Positions 5,125 to 64,000 of a stretch of DNA of 64,000 bases are shown one piece after another. The notes beneath the pieces are model-generated. The model worked only from the letters and a program-made list of their open reading frames with translations, did not search any database and had not been told where the DNA came from. The position numbers were made by a program, and so were the translations under genes. Where the stretch lies: contig NZ_QYUK01000011.1 of the NCBI RefSeq assembly GCF_003590945.1, positions 1,702,001 through 1,766,000 on the forward strand. The letters run 5' to 3'. This DNA comes from Oleomonas cavernae (lineage in GTDB: Bacteria; Pseudomonadota; Alphaproteobacteria; Zavarziniales; Zavarziniaceae). Within the stretch, counting starts at the first letter, position 1; every line of letters starts with the position of its first letter.

Positions 5125-5345
5125 CTGGGAGACTGTTTCAAAAGTTGTGCCTTGCGGAGACGCATTGCGTCCTTCGACAAGCTCAGGATGAGGGGAATCT
5201 TTGTGGCAAAAAGACTTGTCCTCATGGTGAGCCTGTCGAACCACGCAACTCGTTTGCCCGTGTCACCCAACGAGAGGCGTCTAATCTTGCCATTCTTGAT
5301 CGCCACCTGCGCTTCGCCAAGAGGGAATTGCCATCCTGCGGACAT
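5115..5345 (-). CDS. Doubtful small ORF ending inside a repeat
   Basis: A 76-codon ORF whose ATG (5345) lies 7 bases beyond the stop of the 138-aa gene, in the same direction. The first about 35 residues (MSAGWQFPLGEAQVAIKNGK...) look protein-like. The second half is the translated palindrome (IPLILSLSKDAMR) and it overlaps the 5' end of the 111-aa gene. It may be a once-longer gene cut by the repeat, or chance. Confidence 0.2.
   Translation of the reverse strand: MSAGWQFPLGEAQVAIKNGKIRRLSLGDTGKRVAWFDRLTMRTSLFATKIPLILSLSKDAMRLRKAQLLKQSPRCL
5163..5247. repeat. Palindromic repeat, diverged relative of family A
   Basis: Inverted repeat with arms TGCGTCCTTCGACAAGCTCA and, at the other end, GTGAGCCTGTCGAACCACGCA. 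It shares the CAGGATGAGG...CCTCAT core and the AATCTTTGTGGCAAAAAGACTT centre with family A. It is shorter and less perfect than the 115-bp copies. It separates two unknown genes. Confidence 0.75.
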
Positions 5346-5351
5346 TGCCGA

Positions 5352-5768
5352 TCACCCGCGAGACACTTCGGCGGCCCGCATCAACATGCCGGCGACCGCC
5401 AACGCCTCTGCGTTGGAAAGCTCGATGTGGACGCCCAGGGGCTTCCTGATTTTCAGGCAGATGGCACTATCCAACCAGACATCGACCCGGCCGTCGGCCG
5501 CCTCATAGGTCCAAAGGGATTGGCCTGTTGCGCCAATAGTAGCCTTCGCCTTGGTCTGAGCCCCAAGACCAACATCGCCCTCTCCCGGTCGGGTAGCCAG
5601 CCGCAGCAGTATTTCAGCCAGTTCGACGATCGCTTCCTCGCCCAAATCGGTTGGGTCGTCGAAGGGATTCAACGATTTCAGGCAGATGGCGCCGGTCGGC
5701 TCCCGCCAGACCTCAATGTCCCCTTCCCCTGCCAAAATTCGCTGGTCGTCTGTCATTGCACCTTCCAT
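5352..5768 (-). CDS. Hypothetical protein, 138 aa
   Basis: I do not recognise this protein. It contains two similar segments, WREPTGAICLKSLNPFDDP (about residues 21-39) and VWLDSAICLKIRKPLGVHIEL (about 97-117). Each is followed by a helix of the type AIVELAEILLRLA or AEALAVAGMLMRAA, so it may consist of two related halves. No signal peptide or membrane segment. ATG 5768 has GGAGG ten bases upstream; ATG 5756 (MTDDQR...) with GGAAGG four bases upstream is an alternative start. The gene is in an accessory patch. Confidence 0.55.
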   Translation of the reverse strand: MEGAMTDDQRILAGEGDIEVWREPTGAICLKSLNPFDDPTDLGEEAIVELAEILLRLATRPGEGDVGLGAQTKAKATIGATGQSLWTYEAADGRVDVWLDSAICLKIRKPLGVHIELSNAEALAVAGMLMRAAEVSRG

Positions 5769-5946
5769 GGCGATAAAGCCTCCGGTCGTATGGCAGGATG
5801 ACCGCCGACTTGATCTCGCGCAATGCGGGGCGGTGCCGGCGAGACAAAGTTGGCCAGGAACAGGTCCGCGGCCTGAATCAAGCGACTTCGACCCCCGGCG
5901 GCGCTAATCTGCTCCAAGCGGCTCGCTCGGCCCCGGAAAACGCGCG

Positions 5947-53705: not shown

Positions 53706-54098
53706 ATGACCGCCACCGCCATCGCCCAAATCCTCGCCGCCGTGAAATTCGACGAACGCGGCCTCGTGCCCGCCATCGCCCAAGCCCACGACAGCGGCGA
53801 GGTCCTGATGATGGCCTGGATGAATGCGCAATCCCTGGCCGAGACCTTGAATACCGGCCGCGTCACCTACTGGTCGCGCTCGCGCGCCGGCCTGTGGCGC
53901 AAGGGCGACACCTCCGGCCATGTCCAGGTGCTGCGCGAGCTGCGCGTCGACTGCGACGGCGACACGATCCTGCTCCTGGTCGACCAGACCGGCCCCGCCT
54001 GCCACACCGGCACCCGCACCTGCTTCTTCCGCAAGGCGGAGGATGGCGCCCTGGTCGAGGCGGCGACCTTCGTGCCCTGCGGGCATGAGCACGGGTAG
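53706..54098 (+). CDS. hisI: Phosphoribosyl-AMP cyclohydrolase
   Basis: 130 residues. It opens the purine ring of phosphoribosyl-AMP in histidine synthesis. The catalytic zinc ligands are present with exact family spacing, C83-x15-C99-x6-C106, and the Mg-binding Asp set is D82-C-D84-G-D86. The MMAWMN and [18 protein letters not shown] blocks are typical. It is preceded by a Zur box, so it may be a Zur-regulated HisI copy made under zinc shortage; no other his genes are nearby, which supports a second, dedicated copy. Extra CGHEHG at the C-terminus could bind metal. Confidence 0.9.
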
Positions 54099-54103
54099 GC
54101 CGG

Positions 54104-54775
54104 GTGCCCGGCAACACGACCATAGCCGAGATCGCGGGCCTGTTCGGCAAGCCCGAACTGTCCCACGCCCTGTTCTATGCCTTCGAGGTCGGCCTTCGCC
54201 TCAGGCTGGGCAGTGATCAAGACTGGCACTATCAGATCGACCGTATTCCCCGTTTTCTGCATTCGATCGACCGCGCCCGGGCGATCATCAGGGCGGTGTT
54301 TGCGCCGACGGACCCGGTCGCACTGATCAGCCAGTATGGCGGACCGGCCTGGGGCAACGCCGAACGAAAGGGCATCGCCGCCCTGAAAGCAGCGGGATTT
54401 GATGTCGGCGTGCTGAAACCCGCAGGAGACGTTATCCAGGACGACCATGACGACGGGACCTATCGACGCTGGTATCTCACGCCGCCCCTTCCCGCCCATG
54501 AGGTCGACAAGCTGACATGGTGTGCGGTGTCAGGCGAGATAGACGTCAAGCCGCAGGCGAGCGCGTTCAAGATTTACCTGGTCGATCCGGACCGCAAGGT
54601 CATCGCCCATGTCTATGACGACCGCGGCATGGACGTTGTCGCCCTGGAACCCGATACATTACGGCCGCTCTATCGCCAGTTCCAGGGCTGGCTGCTCGAC
54701 TACGACCGCAGCAGAATGGACGCTGTCTTCGCCTCCGGCAACGTGTTGCCCGTAACCCCGAAGACTACCGACTGA
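54104..54775 (+). CDS. DUF3885 domain protein
   Basis: 223 residues from GTG 54104, 5 bp after hisI. The C-terminal VYDDRGMDVVALEPDTLRPL and YRQFQGWLLDYDRSRMD blocks are those of DUF3885; YLTPPLPAHEVDKLTWCAVSG and FKIYLVDPDRKVIAHVYDD are also seen. No signal peptide or membrane helix. Function unknown; the spacing makes it part of the hisI transcript and so perhaps of the Zur regulon. It converges on the ATP-grasp gene across a repeat. Confidence 0.75.
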   Translation: MPGNTTIAEIAGLFGKPELSHALFYAFEVGLRLRLGSDQDWHYQIDRIPRFLHSIDRARAIIRAVFAPTDPVALISQYGGPAWGNAERKGIAALKAAGFDVGVLKPAGDVIQDDHDDGTYRRWYLTPPLPAHEVDKLTWCAVSGEIDVKPQASAFKIYLVDPDRKVIAHVYDDRGMDVVALEPDTLRPLYRQFQGWLLDYDRSRMDAVFASGNVLPVTPKTTD

Positions 54776-54784
54776 TCCCCCAGC

Positions 54785-54865
54785 CGTCATTCCGGCGAAG
54801 GCCGAATCCATTTTGATGAAGCGCGTGCTGGCCCGGAATGGATTCCGGCCTTCGCCGGAATGACG
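54785..54865. repeat. Family C palindromic repeat, copy 1
   Basis: 81 bp with arms CGTCATTCCGGCGAAGGCCG / CGGCCTTCGCCGGAATGACG and inner AATCCATTTTG / GAATGGATT, centre GATGAAGCGCGTGCTGGCCC. It fills the convergent gap between the DUF3885 gene and the ATP-grasp gene. Copies 2 and 3 follow at 55829 and 56712. Confidence 0.93.
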
Positions 54866-54877
54866 TGGGGAGATGTC

Positions 54878-55765
54878 TCAGCGCAATGGGCTCACACCGA
54901 GAATCGCGTTGAGCAGGTGTTGCGGGTCAGCAACTTCAGGCAGGCCTGAAACTTGACCGTCACCTACTTCCAAAAGGAGCCATCCGCCACTGGCGAGGCG
55001 TGCAAAGTCGGCCGTCGCGAAATGACTTGGCAAGGCAGCGCAGACAGCTTCGACAATTTCCTTTGGCGGGCCATCGCCAATCATACCGGTGATCCTTGGC
55101 CAACAACCGACCGGGTGACCGTCGAACGCAAATACCCGCCATTCCATGACCTCGTCGCCGATATGGGCGAGCTCACGCCAGGCACGAAATACCAACCCAC
55201 CGACCAGAGAATTACCCTGGAGTTCCCGGAAACGAGAGATCACTCGCTTCGCCCCCGCAAGATCGCTCGCTGACGGGATGAAGCAGGCTTCCTCCCAATA
55301 ACCCGCAGCCTGCGATTTTACCCAGTCCTTCAGAACCACGGGGCCATCGCCGAACGCTGCCAGCGTGTATGCCAGCGCTTGGTCGTCATCCATCTCGTCG
55401 CCGGCAATCCATGCAGTCGGCGCCATCCAAGGCGCCACATGAGGATAGGCCACCGGCCCCCAATGGCACGCTGCATACTGATCGGGCGAATTGACGAGGC
55501 GGACTTCCTTCGCTTCCAGCGCATCGTACAGCAACGCGTAGTCTTCCACCCTCAACATCCAGCCGCGGTAGATAGCCTCGATCGGGCCGTCGACGCGAAG
55601 GCGTCGTAGTGCAGCCTTGGTGTCGTGACGATGATCCAACGCCTCGTGGTCGATCAGCAGATGCGAAACGCCAAGCGCCGTCGCTGCGTCAGCCTCCCGC
55701 TGAAATGCGGCATCTGCGACCTTTGGATCAATTGGATCCGAGCAGAAGATAATCGTCTTTGGCAT
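54878..55765 (-). CDS. ATP-grasp domain protein (DUF4343-like)
   Basis: 295 residues. N-terminal Rossmann-like part KTIIFCSDPIDPKVADAAF; ATP-grasp parts: VVLKDWVKSQAAGYWEEACF, GGLVFRAWRELAHIGDEVMEWRVFAFDG, and the metal/ATP site ASGGWLLLEVGDGQVSGLPE. Such enzymes ligate a carboxylate to an amine or thiol through an acyl phosphate; this subgroup often has no assigned partner and can act in peptide or RiPP-like tailoring. It stands alone between two copies of the family C palindrome, with A+T content above its neighbours. Confidence 0.78.
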   Translation of the reverse strand: MPKTIIFCSDPIDPKVADAAFQREADAATALGVSHLLIDHEALDHRHDTKAALRRLRVDGPIEAIYRGWMLRVEDYALLYDALEAKEVRLVNSPDQYAACHWGPVAYPHVAPWMAPTAWIAGDEMDDDQALAYTLAAFGDGPVVLKDWVKSQAAGYWEEACFIPSASDLAGAKRVISRFRELQGNSLVGGLVFRAWRELAHIGDEVMEWRVFAFDGHPVGCWPRITGMIGDGPPKEIVEAVCAALPSHFATADFARLASGGWLLLEVGDGQVSGLPEVADPQHLLNAILGVSPLR

Positions 55766-55828
55766 TGCCCCACCTGCACTCCACCTCGAAGTGAACTAGT
55801 CGTATGTGGTTACCAACACTCGTCCACT

Positions 55829-55910
55829 CGTCATTCCGGCGAAGGCCGGAATCCATTTTGATGAAGCGCGTGCTGGCCCAGAATGGATTCCGGCCTTCGC
55901 CGGAATGACG
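55829..55910. repeat. Family C palindromic repeat, copy 2
   Basis: 82 bp with the same arms and centre as copy 1 (nearly identical base by base). It lies between the ATP-grasp gene start and the end of the 239-aa gene. Confidence 0.93.
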
Positions 55911-55978
55911 TTTGAGGTTATACAGTATATCCCTCGAACGGACGGTCAGAAATTGACCAAGGTGCCTTCACTCCATAG

Positions 55979-56698
55979 TCATATGCAGCTCTGTTGCAGC
56001 GAGCAGGCCTTCTCGGTACTCGAAAGTAATGCCCCATCCCGGGTAAGACCCAAATAGACTTGGGAGACACCATAGCGCGGGTCCGATCCCACACCAACGC
56101 CGCCCACAAATTCCCAATAGTTTTCCGCCGTCACCTGGCTTAGGTAGGCAGGAAATTCGTCAGAAAAGTCCGGCTGATATCGCGAATTCATCCCGGCCAT
56201 GAACGCCTTATGCCGTTCAGGAGCCGTTACCAAGTCATACCAGTATTTCACCACATCGACGAATATCTCTGGCGGTGTATCTCTTGTAGCCACGTAGTCC
56301 GCAGAATCCTGGCGGGGGCACGGACCATCCGCTATCGTCATGTAGGTCCAGACCCTTTCGGTTGCCACGACCAATTTCTTGTCGGGCTCATCCTTCCATC
56401 CGCCCTTGCCGTCGCGGAACATGAAGCGCTCGGTGAACAAGCAGACGTCGCTCGGCGCCCTCATCACCTCCGACCTGACTTCATAGGAGTATCCGCCAGG
56501 AAATACGAAGTGCGAGCAGACCTCGACGGCATCATGCGGCATCGCCCGCAGATAACTCTTCAGTTCGGCGGGTATCTGCGGACTGTCACCAAAATAGACC
56601 TTGCAACGATCGAAGGTGAGCGCGCCCTTCGCATTGGCGTGTGCCGTGACAAGACAGGCAAGCAAGCCCACTGATATCGCCAGCCATTTCATCGCCAT
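55979..56698 (-). CDS. Secreted hypothetical protein, 239 aa
   Basis: Signal peptide MKWLAISVGLLACLVTAHANA, then a mature part with five spaced cysteines (DRCKVYF, VEVCSHF, DVCLFTE, GPCPRQ, KACSLQQSCI). Such cysteines fit disulfides in the periplasm. No family recognised. Base composition is less G+C-rich than average and the gene is bracketed by copies 2 and 3 of the family C palindrome, so it looks acquired. Confidence 0.6.
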   Translation of the reverse strand: MAMKWLAISVGLLACLVTAHANAKGALTFDRCKVYFGDSPQIPAELKSYLRAMPHDAVEVCSHFVFPGGYSYEVRSEVMRAPSDVCLFTERFMFRDGKGGWKDEPDKKLVVATERVWTYMTIADGPCPRQDSADYVATRDTPPEIFVDVVKYWYDLVTAPERHKAFMAGMNSRYQPDFSDEFPAYLSQVTAENYWEFVGGVGVGSDPRYGVSQVYLGLTRDGALLSSTEKACSLQQSCI

Positions 56699-56711
56699 CC
56701 TCCCCTTCTCT

Positions 56712-56793
56712 CGTCATTCTGGCGAAGGCCGGAATCTATTTTGATGAAGCGCGCGCTGGCCCGAAATGGATTCCGGCCTCCGCCGGAATGACG
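56712..56793. repeat. Family C palindromic repeat, copy 3
   Basis: 82 bp with a few substitutions from copies 1 and 2 (arm CGTCATTCTGGCGAAGGCCG). It lies between the 239-aa gene start and the end of the lactone-oxidase gene. Confidence 0.92.
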
Positions 56794-56809: not shown

Positions 56810-58093
56810 CTACTCCTCGAACAGGTCGCGCAGATAGTCGTTGAGGAACAGGCCGTCAGGGTCCAGCCGGCGGCGGACGGTTTGGAAGTCGTGCCAGTGG
56901 GGATAGAGCGCTGCGAGGTCCGCCGCTTTCAGGGTGTGGAGCTTGCCCCAGTGGGGGCGGCCCTGGTGGTTGCGGAAGATGGCTTCCATCGCCGCGAAAT
57001 AGGCGGTGAAGTCCTCGCCAGCCAGGCGGTGGACGGCGATGGCAGCGCAGTCGCGGCCCTCGAAGGGGCTGAGCCAGATGTCGTCGGCGGCGACGTAGCG
57101 GAACTCGATGGGGAAGTAGATCCTGGTCCCCGTGCGCTGGAACCAGGCGCGGATCTCGGCGATGCACTCCAGGCCGGCCTGTGCCGGCACCGCATATTCC
57201 ATCTCGTTGAAGCGGACCGAGCGGCTGGAGGGGAAAGTGCGCTCGGCATAGTCGATCTTCTCGCTGCTGCCGGCCGCGGCCGAGAGCCGGGCCAGCGGGC
57301 CGGTGAGCGCCGGGATCAGGCGCGAAGCCTGGGCGAAAGCCCACAGGGCGCCGTTCTCCACCACCGAGGTCTTGAAGTGATGCAGGGCAAGGGCCTTGGA
57401 GACCGGGGCATCGGTCGGGTCCAGGGTTTTCACCACGGCCGCCTGGGAGAGCGGGAACCAGAAGAATTCCGCGTGACGATGCGCCTGCGCGAAATCCGGG
57501 AACGTCGCCAGCACCTCGTCGAGGGCCATGCCGCGCTGGCGCTCGTGCAGCGTATAGGCGGGACGGCAGGCGAGTGTCACCTCGGAGAGAATGCCCATCG
57601 AGCCCATGGCGACACGGGCGGCGTTGAAGACGTCGCTCTCGACCGTGGCGCTGCACGACACGATGTCGCCGCTGGCGGTCACCAGGCGCAGGGCGGTTGC
57701 CTGGGACGCGATGCTGCCCAGGCCGACCCCCGTGCCATGGGTGCCGGTGCCGATGGCACCGGCAATGGCCTGGGCATCGATGTCGCCCTGGTTGGCGAGG
57801 CTCAAGCCCCTTTCGCGCAGCAAGGGGCCTAACGCCCTGATCGTGGTGCCGGCCTTCACCGTCGCCTGTTCACCCTCGACCGCGACCACGCCGCTGTGGC
57901 CGGCAAGGCTGATATGGGCGCTGTCGGTTACGCACAGGGGGGTGAAGGAATGGCCGCTGCCGACCACGCGCAAGGTCAGGCCCCGGGCCTTGGCCTCGCG
58001 CACCGCGGCGACGATGCCGGTCTCCTCGACCGGTGAGAAGATGACGGCCGGGTTGGCCTGGTGCAGGCCCGACCAGTTGCGCCAGGCGGTCAC
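56810..58093 (-). CDS. FAD-linked lactone oxidase/dehydrogenase (D-arabinono-/L-gulono-lactone type)
   Basis: 427 residues. The VAO-type FAD-binding domain has VVGSGHSFTPLC, whose His48 is the residue that covalently binds FAD in this family. The ALO domain ends with PHWGKLHTL (the H-W-x-K signature of aldonolactone oxidases). It oxidises an aldonolactone or a similar polyol with O2 or an electron acceptor. GTG start at 58093 overlaps the TGA of the permease gene (GTGA), so it is translated with an ABC-2 exporter, an unusual partner for this enzyme. Confidence 0.85.
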   Translation of the reverse strand: MTAWRNWSGLHQANPAVIFSPVEETGIVAAVREAKARGLTLRVVGSGHSFTPLCVTDSAHISLAGHSGVVAVEGEQATVKAGTTIRALGPLLRERGLSLANQGDIDAQAIAGAIGTGTHGTGVGLGSIASQATALRLVTASGDIVSCSATVESDVFNAARVAMGSMGILSEVTLACRPAYTLHERQRGMALDEVLATFPDFAQAHRHAEFFWFPLSQAAVVKTLDPTDAPVSKALALHHFKTSVVENGALWAFAQASRLIPALTGPLARLSAAAGSSEKIDYAERTFPSSRSVRFNEMEYAVPAQAGLECIAEIRAWFQRTGTRIYFPIEFRYVAADDIWLSPFEGRDCAAIAVHRLAGEDFTAYFAAMEAIFRNHQGRPHWGKLHTLKAADLAALYPHWHDFQTVRRRLDPDGLFLNDYLRDLFEE

Positions 58094-59388
58094 GGTTGCA
58101 CCGAGGGCCTGGTGAAGCGGGTCGAGAGCAGGAAGCCGATGCCGATCAGTTGCGCGGCCGGGCCGATCAGCCCCAGGAACAGGTCGGCCCCGGCCATGGG
58201 CGCGAACAGCGGCAGCAGCCTGACGCCGCCGGCCCCGGCCAGGATCGCGGGAACGACGACATAGAGCACGATCAGATAGACCAGGGCAGCCAGGTGGCCG
58301 CGGCGCATCCGCGGCCCCAGCACGACATAGTAGACCAGGGCCATGTCGCGCAGCAGGAACAGGAAGGTGGCCACAAGCTGGGCCGCGACCCGGCCGCCTT
58401 CCGGCATCTGGGCGACCGTGGCGACGCCGACCGCGATGATGACGGGCAGGCCCGCCACCCAGGGCGGCATGTCGGCGAAGGCGCCCTGCCAGTCGCCGGC
58501 GGTCAGGCGCCCCAGAAGCCGGCGCAGGCGCACGATGCTCTTGGGTTCGAGGAAGCCGGCGGCCCAGGTCGCCATGACCAGGACATGAAAGCTCAAGCCG
58601 GCCTCGACGAAGGCATCCCCGAAGGCCAGGCTGTCGGTGATCTCGGGCAGGCGGTTGGTGAAGCCGTTGAAGAAGACCACCAGGAAGACCAGGAACAGCA
58701 GCCAGACCAGCGGCCGGCTGCGATACTGCAACTCGGCCCGCATCAGGCGGTAGCAGCCGATCCAGCCCCAGAGCGCAAAGAGCGCGGTGACCAGCAGGGC
58801 GAACAGCTTGGGCTGGAACACGATGCCGTACCAGTTGATCTCGAACTCGAAGCCCACCACCAGGGGCAGGAACTGGAACGAGGCGAGGATCGCCACGATC
58901 TGGGCGAAGGTCACCTGGAAACGGCGGACACCCGATTGCAGGCGCAACTGGATCAGGCCGAACCACAGCGCGATCGAATGGGCAAACAGGCCGGTGACGA
59001 CCAGCCTGACCGGCGCCAGGTCGTCACCCGGCACGCCGCCCGAGGCGAGCACGGCGCCTAAGCAGATGGCCGCGCCATACCAGGAATAGACCGTGCCGCC
59101 CAGCAGCTTGCCCAGGGTCATGGCGCTGGGCCCGATGCCGGAGAGACGCTGGCCATCCCAGGTGCGGCCCTGGACCTCGGAGACGACACTGTCGCAGGCC
59201 ATGCGGCTGCCCCAAAACACCAGGATGGCCCAGCAGACGACCATGGCGGTCTGGGCCACCGCCGCCTGCTGGTCCCAGGTCCAGCCCATCATGAACAGCA
59301 GGAACAGGACCGCCGGCATGGCGATCAAGCGCTGGGTCGAGAGTTCGAGCCACAGGTTGCGGCGCAGTTCGGGGTTAAGAAGCATCAT
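58090..59388 (-). CDS. ABC-2-type transporter permease, unusual
   Basis: 432 residues with about ten to twelve membrane helices, for example AMPAVLFLLFMMGWTW, AMVVCWAILVFWGS, SRPLVWLLFLVFLVVFFNGF and VAALVYLIVLYVVVPAILAG (the last in pieces). No permease signature of a well-known subfamily. It sits between an ATPase gene (ATGA overlap) and a lactone-oxidase gene (GTGA overlap), so its function as the membrane part of that ABC system is from context. Substrate unknown. Confidence 0.72.
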   Translation of the reverse strand: MMLLNPELRRNLWLELSTQRLIAMPAVLFLLFMMGWTWDQQAAVAQTAMVVCWAILVFWGSRMACDSVVSEVQGRTWDGQRLSGIGPSAMTLGKLLGGTVYSWYGAAICLGAVLASGGVPGDDLAPVRLVVTGLFAHSIALWFGLIQLRLQSGVRRFQVTFAQIVAILASFQFLPLVVGFEFEINWYGIVFQPKLFALLVTALFALWGWIGCYRLMRAELQYRSRPLVWLLFLVFLVVFFNGFTNRLPEITDSLAFGDAFVEAGLSFHVLVMATWAAGFLEPKSIVRLRRLLGRLTAGDWQGAFADMPPWVAGLPVIIAVGVATVAQMPEGGRVAAQLVATFLFLLRDMALVYYVVLGPRMRRGHLAALVYLIVLYVVVPAILAGAGGVRLLPLFAPMAGADLFLGLIGPAAQLIGIGFLLSTRFTRPSVQP

Positions 59389-63006: not shown

Positions 63007-64000
63007 CGACCTTCCTCCATTCCTTCGGCATTTCCCGTGCCCGCCTCGCCGCCATGGTGGTGAAGGAATTCATTCAGATGCGGCGCGACCGCCTGACCTT
63101 TGCCCTGCTGATCGGCATCCCGATCATGCAGCTCGCCCTGTTCGGCTTTGCCATCAACAACGACCCCAAGGGCCTGCCCACCATCGTCCATGTGGCCGAG
63201 GACGGCCCCCATGCCCGCAGTATCCTCAGCGCCCTGCGCAATTCCGGTTACTTCAAGCTGGAGGAAGAGGCAGCCAGCCGGGCGCAGGTCGACCGCGCCC
63301 TGGAACTGGGCCGGGTACAATTCGCAGTGACGATCCCGGCGGGCTTCGAGCGCACCCTGCTGCGCGGCGAGACCCCGCAACTGCTGATCGAGGCCGATGC
63401 CAGCGACCCCTCCGCCACCGGCAATGCCATCGCCGCCCTGGCGCGTATCGGAACCGAGGCCCTGCGCCACGACCAGGGCGACCTGGCCGGCACCACGGTC
63501 GCGACGGACGACCGCCCGCCGCCCTTCGAATTTGTCGTCCACCGCCGCTTCAACCCCGACGGCATCACCCAGTACAATATCGTGCCCGGCCTGATCGGGG
63601 TGATCCTGACCATGACCATGGTGATTACCACCGCCATGGCCATGACCCGCGAACGCGAGCGCGGCACCATGGAAAACCTCCTCGCCATGCCGGTGCGGCC
63701 GATCGAGGTGATGACGGGCAAGATCCTGCCGCCCATCGGCATGGGGGCGATTCAGGTCTCGGTCGTGCTGATCGCCGCGCGCGGCCTGTTCGGGGTGCCG
63801 ATGACCGGCTCGTTCCCAGCCCTGATCATCGCCGTGATGCTGTTCATCGCCACCAACCTGTGCATCGGCTTCACCTTCTCGACGGTGGCGCGCAACCAGC
63901 TCCAGGCGATGCAGATGTCGTTCTTCTTCTTCCTGCCGTCGATCCTGCTCTCGGGCTTCATGTTCCCCTTCCGCGGCATGCCGTCGTGGGCCCAGGCGAT
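63003..64000 (+). CDS. ABC-2-type permease (YbhS/YbhR-like), cut by window end
   Basis: At least 332 residues visible from ATG 63003 (ATGA overlap with the ATPase gene). The YbhS layout is seen: ARLAAMVVKEFIQMRRDRLTFALLI (ABC-2 N-terminal helix), a large periplasmic domain, then VPGLIGVILTMTMVITTAMAMTRERERGTMENLLAMPVRP and PSILLSGFMFPFRGMP in pieces. The gene goes on past 64000. With TetR-HlyD-ATPase it forms a tripartite efflux system for small hydrophobic compounds or drugs (family knowledge). Confidence 0.9.
   Translation, partial: MTTFLHSFGISRARLAAMVVKEFIQMRRDRLTFALLIGIPIMQLALFGFAINNDPKGLPTIVHVAEDGPHARSILSALRNSGYFKLEEEAASRAQVDRALELGRVQFAVTIPAGFERTLLRGETPQLLIEADASDPSATGNAIAALARIGTEALRHDQGDLAGTTVATDDRPPPFEFVVHRRFNPDGITQYNIVPGLIGVILTMTMVITTAMAMTRERERGTMENLLAMPVRPIEVMTGKILPPIGMGAIQVSVVLIAARGLFGVPMTGSFPALIIAVMLFIATNLCIGFTFSTVARNQLQAMQMSFFFFLPSILLSGFMFPFRGMPSWAQA

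Follow-up and report, generated by a model that had tools for sequence, protein, structure and literature searches.

CGTC-1 type REP dimers flank two accessory genes between hisI and an oxidoreductase gene in Oleomonas cavernae

Introduction

Between hisI and a gene for an FAD-linked oxidoreductase (ALO) in Oleomonas cavernae lie three accessory genes, two of them bracketed by copies of one repeat. We asked whether these repeats are sites of gene capture or members of an ordinary repeat family. A preliminary description of the locus had proposed that they might serve as recombination sites through which genes are gained or deleted, giving a small cassette array. REP dimers, the class to which we assign the repeats below, are usually regarded as transcript-end hairpins or as selfish DNA. 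If capture were true, they would accept incoming genes outside Neisseria too, and this in a class in which CGTC REPs are common; if it were false, the locus would exemplify how the spread of REPs can make an accessory island resemble a cassette array. The window referred to throughout is the whole stretch of 64,000 nucleotides, and the features under study are listed in Table 1.

Table 1. Genes and repeat elements of the hisI-ALO island (window coordinates)
Feature	Position	Strand	Remarks
hisI (phosphoribosyl-AMP cyclohydrolase)	53706..54098	+	conserved left border
DUF3885 gene	54104..54775	+	accessory, unbracketed
R1, CGTC-1 type REP inverted dimer	54785..54865	+	81 bp; convergent gap
R2K_3 family ATP-grasp gene	54878..55765	-	295 aa, accessory
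R2, CGTC-1 type REP inverted dimer	55829..55910	+	82 bp
Orphan gene	55979..56698	-	239 aa, accessory
R3, CGTC-1 type REP inverted dimer	56712..56793	+	82 bp; most diverged of the trio
FAD-linked oxidoreductase (ALO)	56810..58114	-	conserved right border

Results and discussion

Two apparently imported genes lie between three nearly identical repeats

The preliminary description had placed nearly identical repeats at 54785, 55829 and 56712, around an ATP-grasp gene and then a second gene on the same strand. Alignments and pattern searches bear out both the coordinates and the likeness, and the bracketing of the two genes is confirmed. The best alignment of R1 and R2 has 80 identities, one mismatch and one gap, R2 and R3 are 93% identical by BLAST, and all three elements point in the same direction. 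R1 lies 9 bp from the DUF3885 stop and 12 bp from the R2K stop; R2 is 68 bp beyond the orphan stop, with the R2K start 63 bp further on; R3 is 16 bp beyond the ALO stop and 13 bp from the orphan start. Each copy of the trio thus follows a stop codon at a distance of 9-68 bp, and none lacks a gene whose 3' end points towards it.

The ATP-grasp assignment holds, as the product matches Pfam R2K_3 with 98.3 bits (E 7e-28). It also carries the ExGD motif (LLEVGDGQ) that the available part of PMC4431377 describes for R2K.3, and so has both the domain and the motif of that family, whose members are proposed there to form peptide-like bonds and to function in biological conflicts. The patchy, transferred distribution of the family is seen here too; unlike the R2K.3 loci treated in that part of the source, this one has no adjacent GNAT or second R2K gene among the five named proteins scanned. 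The second gene had been called secreted and Cys-rich. By eye its product does begin with a probable signal peptide, but only six further cysteines follow, for which ‘Cys-rich’ is generous. This orphan has no match in Pfam, NCBIfam, PADLOC or plasmids and one weak match in PHROG (E 0.043), and its single-sequence structure prediction (mean pLDDT 45) is too poor for use.

Both bracketed genes are lower in G+C, as had been noted: 59.6% for the R2K gene and 56.0% for the orphan, with 62.2% for DUF3885, whereas the window as a whole has 66.5% and hisI and ALO have 69%. Their codon scores are -0.10 and -0.04, and that of DUF3885 is 0.18. Among 84 control genes of 500-1100 bp, codon scores fall below 0.08 in 11 and G+C below 61% in 7. 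The gene caller, a simple codon model, misses weak genes, the R2K and orphan genes among them, and for this reason the composition control was rerun with an added ORF step. Low G+C and atypical codon use mark the two genes as apparently imported. Their accessory status is likewise upheld: neither has a match in 59 other genomes, and DUF3885 is absent from all five congeners among these, two of which are only about 75% complete.

The repeats belong to a genome-wide family of CGTC-1 REP dimers

What had been described as one palindrome does form a hairpin, and is really an inverted pair of two small palindromes. These face each other within each element and pair into one hairpin of about 32 bp, for which RNA folding gives energies of -59.1, -67.0 and -57.6 kcal/mol in R1, R2 and R3 (z -9.9, -12.6 and -9.5). 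The trio therefore has the hairpin-forming REP doublet of REPINs, which in the available account (Bertels and Rainey, 2011, PMC3116915) are likewise doublets that make one hairpin and are dispersed as a unit.

The repeated unit, CGTC-ATTCCGGC-GAAG-GCCGGAAT-CCA, matches the published definition of CGTC-1 REPs. As given in the part of Di Nocera et al. (2013, PMC3733652) available to us, these have a CGTC tag that is unpaired in the single unit, an 8-bp stem beginning with AT, a 4-base loop and a CCA tail; the family is typical of alpha-Proteobacteria, lies by gene 3' ends in convergent and tandem gaps, and includes dRS3 of Neisseria. Both arms of R2 read ATTCCGGC-GAAG-GCCGGAAT, with an 8-bp stem and a 4-base loop, and the deviations are slight: one base is lost in the left arm of R1, and T replaces C in the left arm of R3. 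All three copies start with CGTC and end with GACG, and the tail is CCA in R1 and R2 and CTA in the left unit of R3. A half-element pattern (up to 3 mismatches) matches six times in the window, always within the trio, and never in 100 shuffles. Tag, stem and loop length, CCA tail, inverted dimers, alpha-Proteobacterial home and 3'-end placement are all shared with CGTC-1 REPs as that source presents them (PMC3733652).

In the genome of 5.64 Mb, 99 sites match the palindrome pattern with up to 1 mismatch and 82 match the spacer pattern with up to 3 mismatches, with none for either reversed control. Copies were counted by the spacer-pattern search, and the DNA around all 82 sites was examined; 67 reach the full-length score, one place being counted twice because it was read from both strands, which leaves about 66 copies. 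Of the 64 elements outside the trio, 36 lie in convergent gaps, 23 in tandem gaps, none in divergent gaps and 5 inside called ORFs. Control sequence of 180 kb has 81 gaps of 60 bp or more, 9 of them convergent, 49 tandem and 23 divergent, so that the elements are enriched in convergent gaps (Fisher 4e-10, the 5 elements inside called ORFs excluded). Of the 23 elements in tandem gaps, 14 lie closer to the 3' end. An earlier pass over 40 elements had labelled one as divergent (L040, flagged as inside an ORF) and left three unplaced. The dimers inside called ORFs (5 of 64; L144, L010 and L044, for example near C11:2431771 and 2435067) resemble intragenic REPs, but could be signs of miscalled genes.

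The family is multicopy and dispersed and sits mostly in convergent and tandem gaps. Sequence, copy number and placement all assign the trio to the genome's own CGTC-1 type REP dimers. The arm (up to 1 mismatch) has 93 matches in O. cavernae; among 385 class genomes no other has more than 15, and only 9, O. cavernae included, have any match. Elements that can be aligned to the 82-mer occur in four of six other genomes of the family Zavarziniaceae, all congeners, with at most 81% identity over its length. A literature search found the letters of the repeat in no paper, and no paper joining REP, RAYT and alphaproteobacteria. We know of no phage that targets the repeat.

A private spacer suggests a common local origin

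Three copies within 2 kb have a probability of about 0.01 under uniform placement and of 0.02-0.05 when placement follows gene gaps, and three pairs 0.2-1.1 kb apart have P = 0.09; all of these tests are post hoc. The spacer is stronger evidence than such statistics for a common local origin. All three copies share the form TTTTGATGAAGCGCG. Identities within the trio are 92-97%, and none with another copy exceeds 91%; the mean with the other copies is 0.82, against 0.90 for those copies among themselves. In having three private-spacer copies within 1.9 kb around foreign genes the locus departs from CGTC-1 REPs as presented in the available account (PMC3733652). The private spacer and the tight spacing together call for one local origin, for which plain genome-wide spread would be insufficient, and divergence is lowest between R1 and R2 and highest for R3, which may reflect stepwise growth of the array.

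The private spacer could also mean that the block R1-R2K-R2-orphan-R3 arrived ready-made: a close, unsampled relative with its own spacer variant would have donated it through homologous recombination in the flanking genes. The distance of the trio's spacer from the other copies, together with arms of the local type, would agree with this, but the exact spacer pattern has no match in genome_contigs (own genome left out) and congener elements do not exceed the 81% given above. We give this origin little credence.

The spacer, with R1 and R2 nearest and R3 furthest, is also what REP-mediated capture would leave. An incoming REP dimer with its gene would have crossed over with a REP resident between hisI and ALO to give REP-gene-REP, and would have done so twice; the resulting direct repeats would permit clean gene loss. 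A second locus fits this picture. Only three intervals between neighbouring elements are 0.2-2.8 kb long, the two of the trio and C11:2761614-2762586, and the third holds a single gene, DUF2726, with a G+C of 0.61 and a low codon score. In the genome-wide count that the preliminary description called for, most copies lie by ordinary genes, and the only other close pair brackets an atypical one. Beside the DUF2726 locus (L147:6598-7650, equal to C11:2761597-2762649) is an HTH/RelE toxin-antitoxin-like pair, and on its other side an amidase gene.

Several results speak against capture. Copies within 10 kb of each other show no general likeness (P = 0.32 for 15 pairs, two of which involve one place read from both strands). 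Three further stretches, in which neighbouring elements are 2.9-4.5 kb apart, contain host-like genes, some elements there lying inside called ORFs, and among the congeners a REP pair 2.4 kb apart in G001 encloses two host-like genes and one 5.1 kb apart in G005 four. Genes of atypical codon use are not rare, as the 11 of 84 controls show. For homologous recombination, moreover, a match of 82 bp is short.

Apparently foreign genes in a REP-bearing junction

Of the five congeners, only G001 has ALO and hisI as convergent neighbours; between them lies one palindrome, GTCATCCCGGCCTGCGCCGGGATGAC, and no gene, where O. cavernae has three genes. Different contigs carry the two genes in G002, G004 and G005, and in G003 hisI was not found. 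No such palindrome lies within 1.5 kb of ALO in G002-G005, or in the hisI regions of G002, G004 and G005, the G004 contig ending about 0.8 kb past hisI. A junction with one small palindrome and no gene is what capture would start from. As half of an element of related type, however, the palindrome in G001 is evidence for a REP-tolerant junction and not a proven empty site of the trio. Against capture stands also DUF3885, which is just as accessory and has no repeat on its left side, towards hisI.

We favour, with a probability of roughly 0.6, the reading that the trio consists of ordinary, home-grown CGTC-1 REP dimers, REPIN-like, that became associated with foreign genes in a REP-bearing gap, were copied locally and act at transcript ends. 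The foreign genes would have landed in an insertion-tolerant gap between the convergent hisI and ALO that already carried a REP, and one REP variant would then have been copied into the new gaps, leaving a hairpin near the 3' end of each new gene. From hairpin and placement, the elements today are most likely transcript-end structures, which would serve as two-way terminators or protectors of RNA 3' ends and not as dedicated capture sites. The unbracketed DUF3885 and the amplification of the arm in this genome support this reading. The figure of 14 of 23 tandem elements nearer the 3' end weakens it, as does a terminator scan, in which five terminator-like sites in the region, two of them within elements, against a mean of 2.4 (sd 1.6), are not clearly above chance. 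The DUF2726 pair and the G001 half-element count against it in that they would suit capture as well. Rfam gave two matches in the region, both far below gathering scores, one of them over R2.

Capture by repeats of this kind has been suggested before: in the part of PMC3898611 available to us, REP-type recombination or capture is proposed for dRS3 of Neisseria, itself a CGTC-1 repeat. The Neisseria dRS3 and minimal mobile elements described there share with our locus repeats beside variable genes and whole accessory genes between two conserved ones; they differ in their large repeat arrays and in exchange between strains, our analysis covering one genome per species (PMC3898611). All told, the earlier gene-capture interpretation is partly supported. 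The G001 junction, the private sub-family and the DUF2726 pair speak for it; the occurrence of the same REPs at ordinary gene ends, the unbracketed DUF3885, the host-like genes within the G001 pair, the dissimilarity of neighbouring copies and the lack of attC boxes and target duplications reported below speak against it. REP-assisted capture is possible but unproven, and we hold it to be unlikely; a new gene-capture machine or dedicated cassette system is not supported. Also unlikely is the general form of the proposal, in which the REP dimers of this lineage would provide homology islands, or else sites at which a phage-type recombinase acts in trans, and single foreign genes would be captured one by one and be losable. 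The hisI-ALO array and the DUF2726 locus would then be two products of the process, and REP duplication its footprint.

Element ends and a candidate transposase

Target-site duplications were sought at 65 elements, and for k = 2 to 9 they are not above shuffled pairs, unlike in classical MITEs. The attC sites of integrons have the boxes RYYYAAC and GTTRRRY. An integron-type array with the repeats as attC sites would account for one element 3' of each gene, all in the same direction, but attC-like outer boxes occur in none of 65 elements with clear ends, which contradicts it, and many ordinary host genes have such elements beside them as well. We reject this explanation, which has next to no chance of being right.

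Just outside the CGTC tags, at both ends of the elements, is a weak outward motif of 10 bp, approximately RYWGRGGGT, which is not mentioned in the available part of PMC3733652. Taken from both ends of the 61 dimers outside the trio, it places 61% of 122 ends above the 95th percentile of intergenic sequence (leave-one-out), and may belong to the element itself or reflect a preferred target. Four of the six trio ends fit it (R1 left, R2 right and both of R3). The remaining two ends are those that face the R2K gene, as if the gene had split one element; this would suit capture, but the chance odds of the pattern are 1 in 15. In the DUF2726 pair one copy could be scored; it fits the motif at the outer end but not at the end towards the gene.

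A search of the genome found a single Y1_Tnp (RAYT-like) gene, at C11:1056441-1056770 (L057). Its best NCBIfam match is REP_Tyr_transpos with 72.9 bits, below the cut-off of 80. No CGTC family repeat lies in its 3.3-kb locus, about 1.5 kb each way, and in this the family differs from REPINs with their RAYT as presented in the available part of PMC3116915. By eye, the gene is flanked on both sides by short direct repeats that contain AATAGGGGAC-like words and do not belong to the CGTC family.

Relatives of the R2K gene

Among 385 class genomes, its own included, the R2K gene has relatives in one other, as a weak partial match; further relatives are found in ten plasmid records, all below 60% identity, and are encoded by 374 stretches of genome_contigs, of which the best 80 were taken further. 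Across 85 R2K loci there is no homologue of DUF3885 or of the orphan, and a single partial palindrome, which lies 2.7 kb beyond the gene in L060. The 12 alpha-type loci have no repeat of at least 25 bp across the gene, with matches of 16-22 bp in four. That other R2K loci are without such repeats is a further point against capture. The window protein was placed in a tree with 34 of these 85 loci. Its sister there is formed by genes of Inquilinus limosus and of a strain labelled Mycobacterium sp. KBS0706, within a clade of 13 that is otherwise from alpha-Proteobacteria. Elsewhere in the window, the ORFs at 5145-5801 and 63248-63742 have atypical codon use and no Pfam match, and may be foreign genes or spurious.
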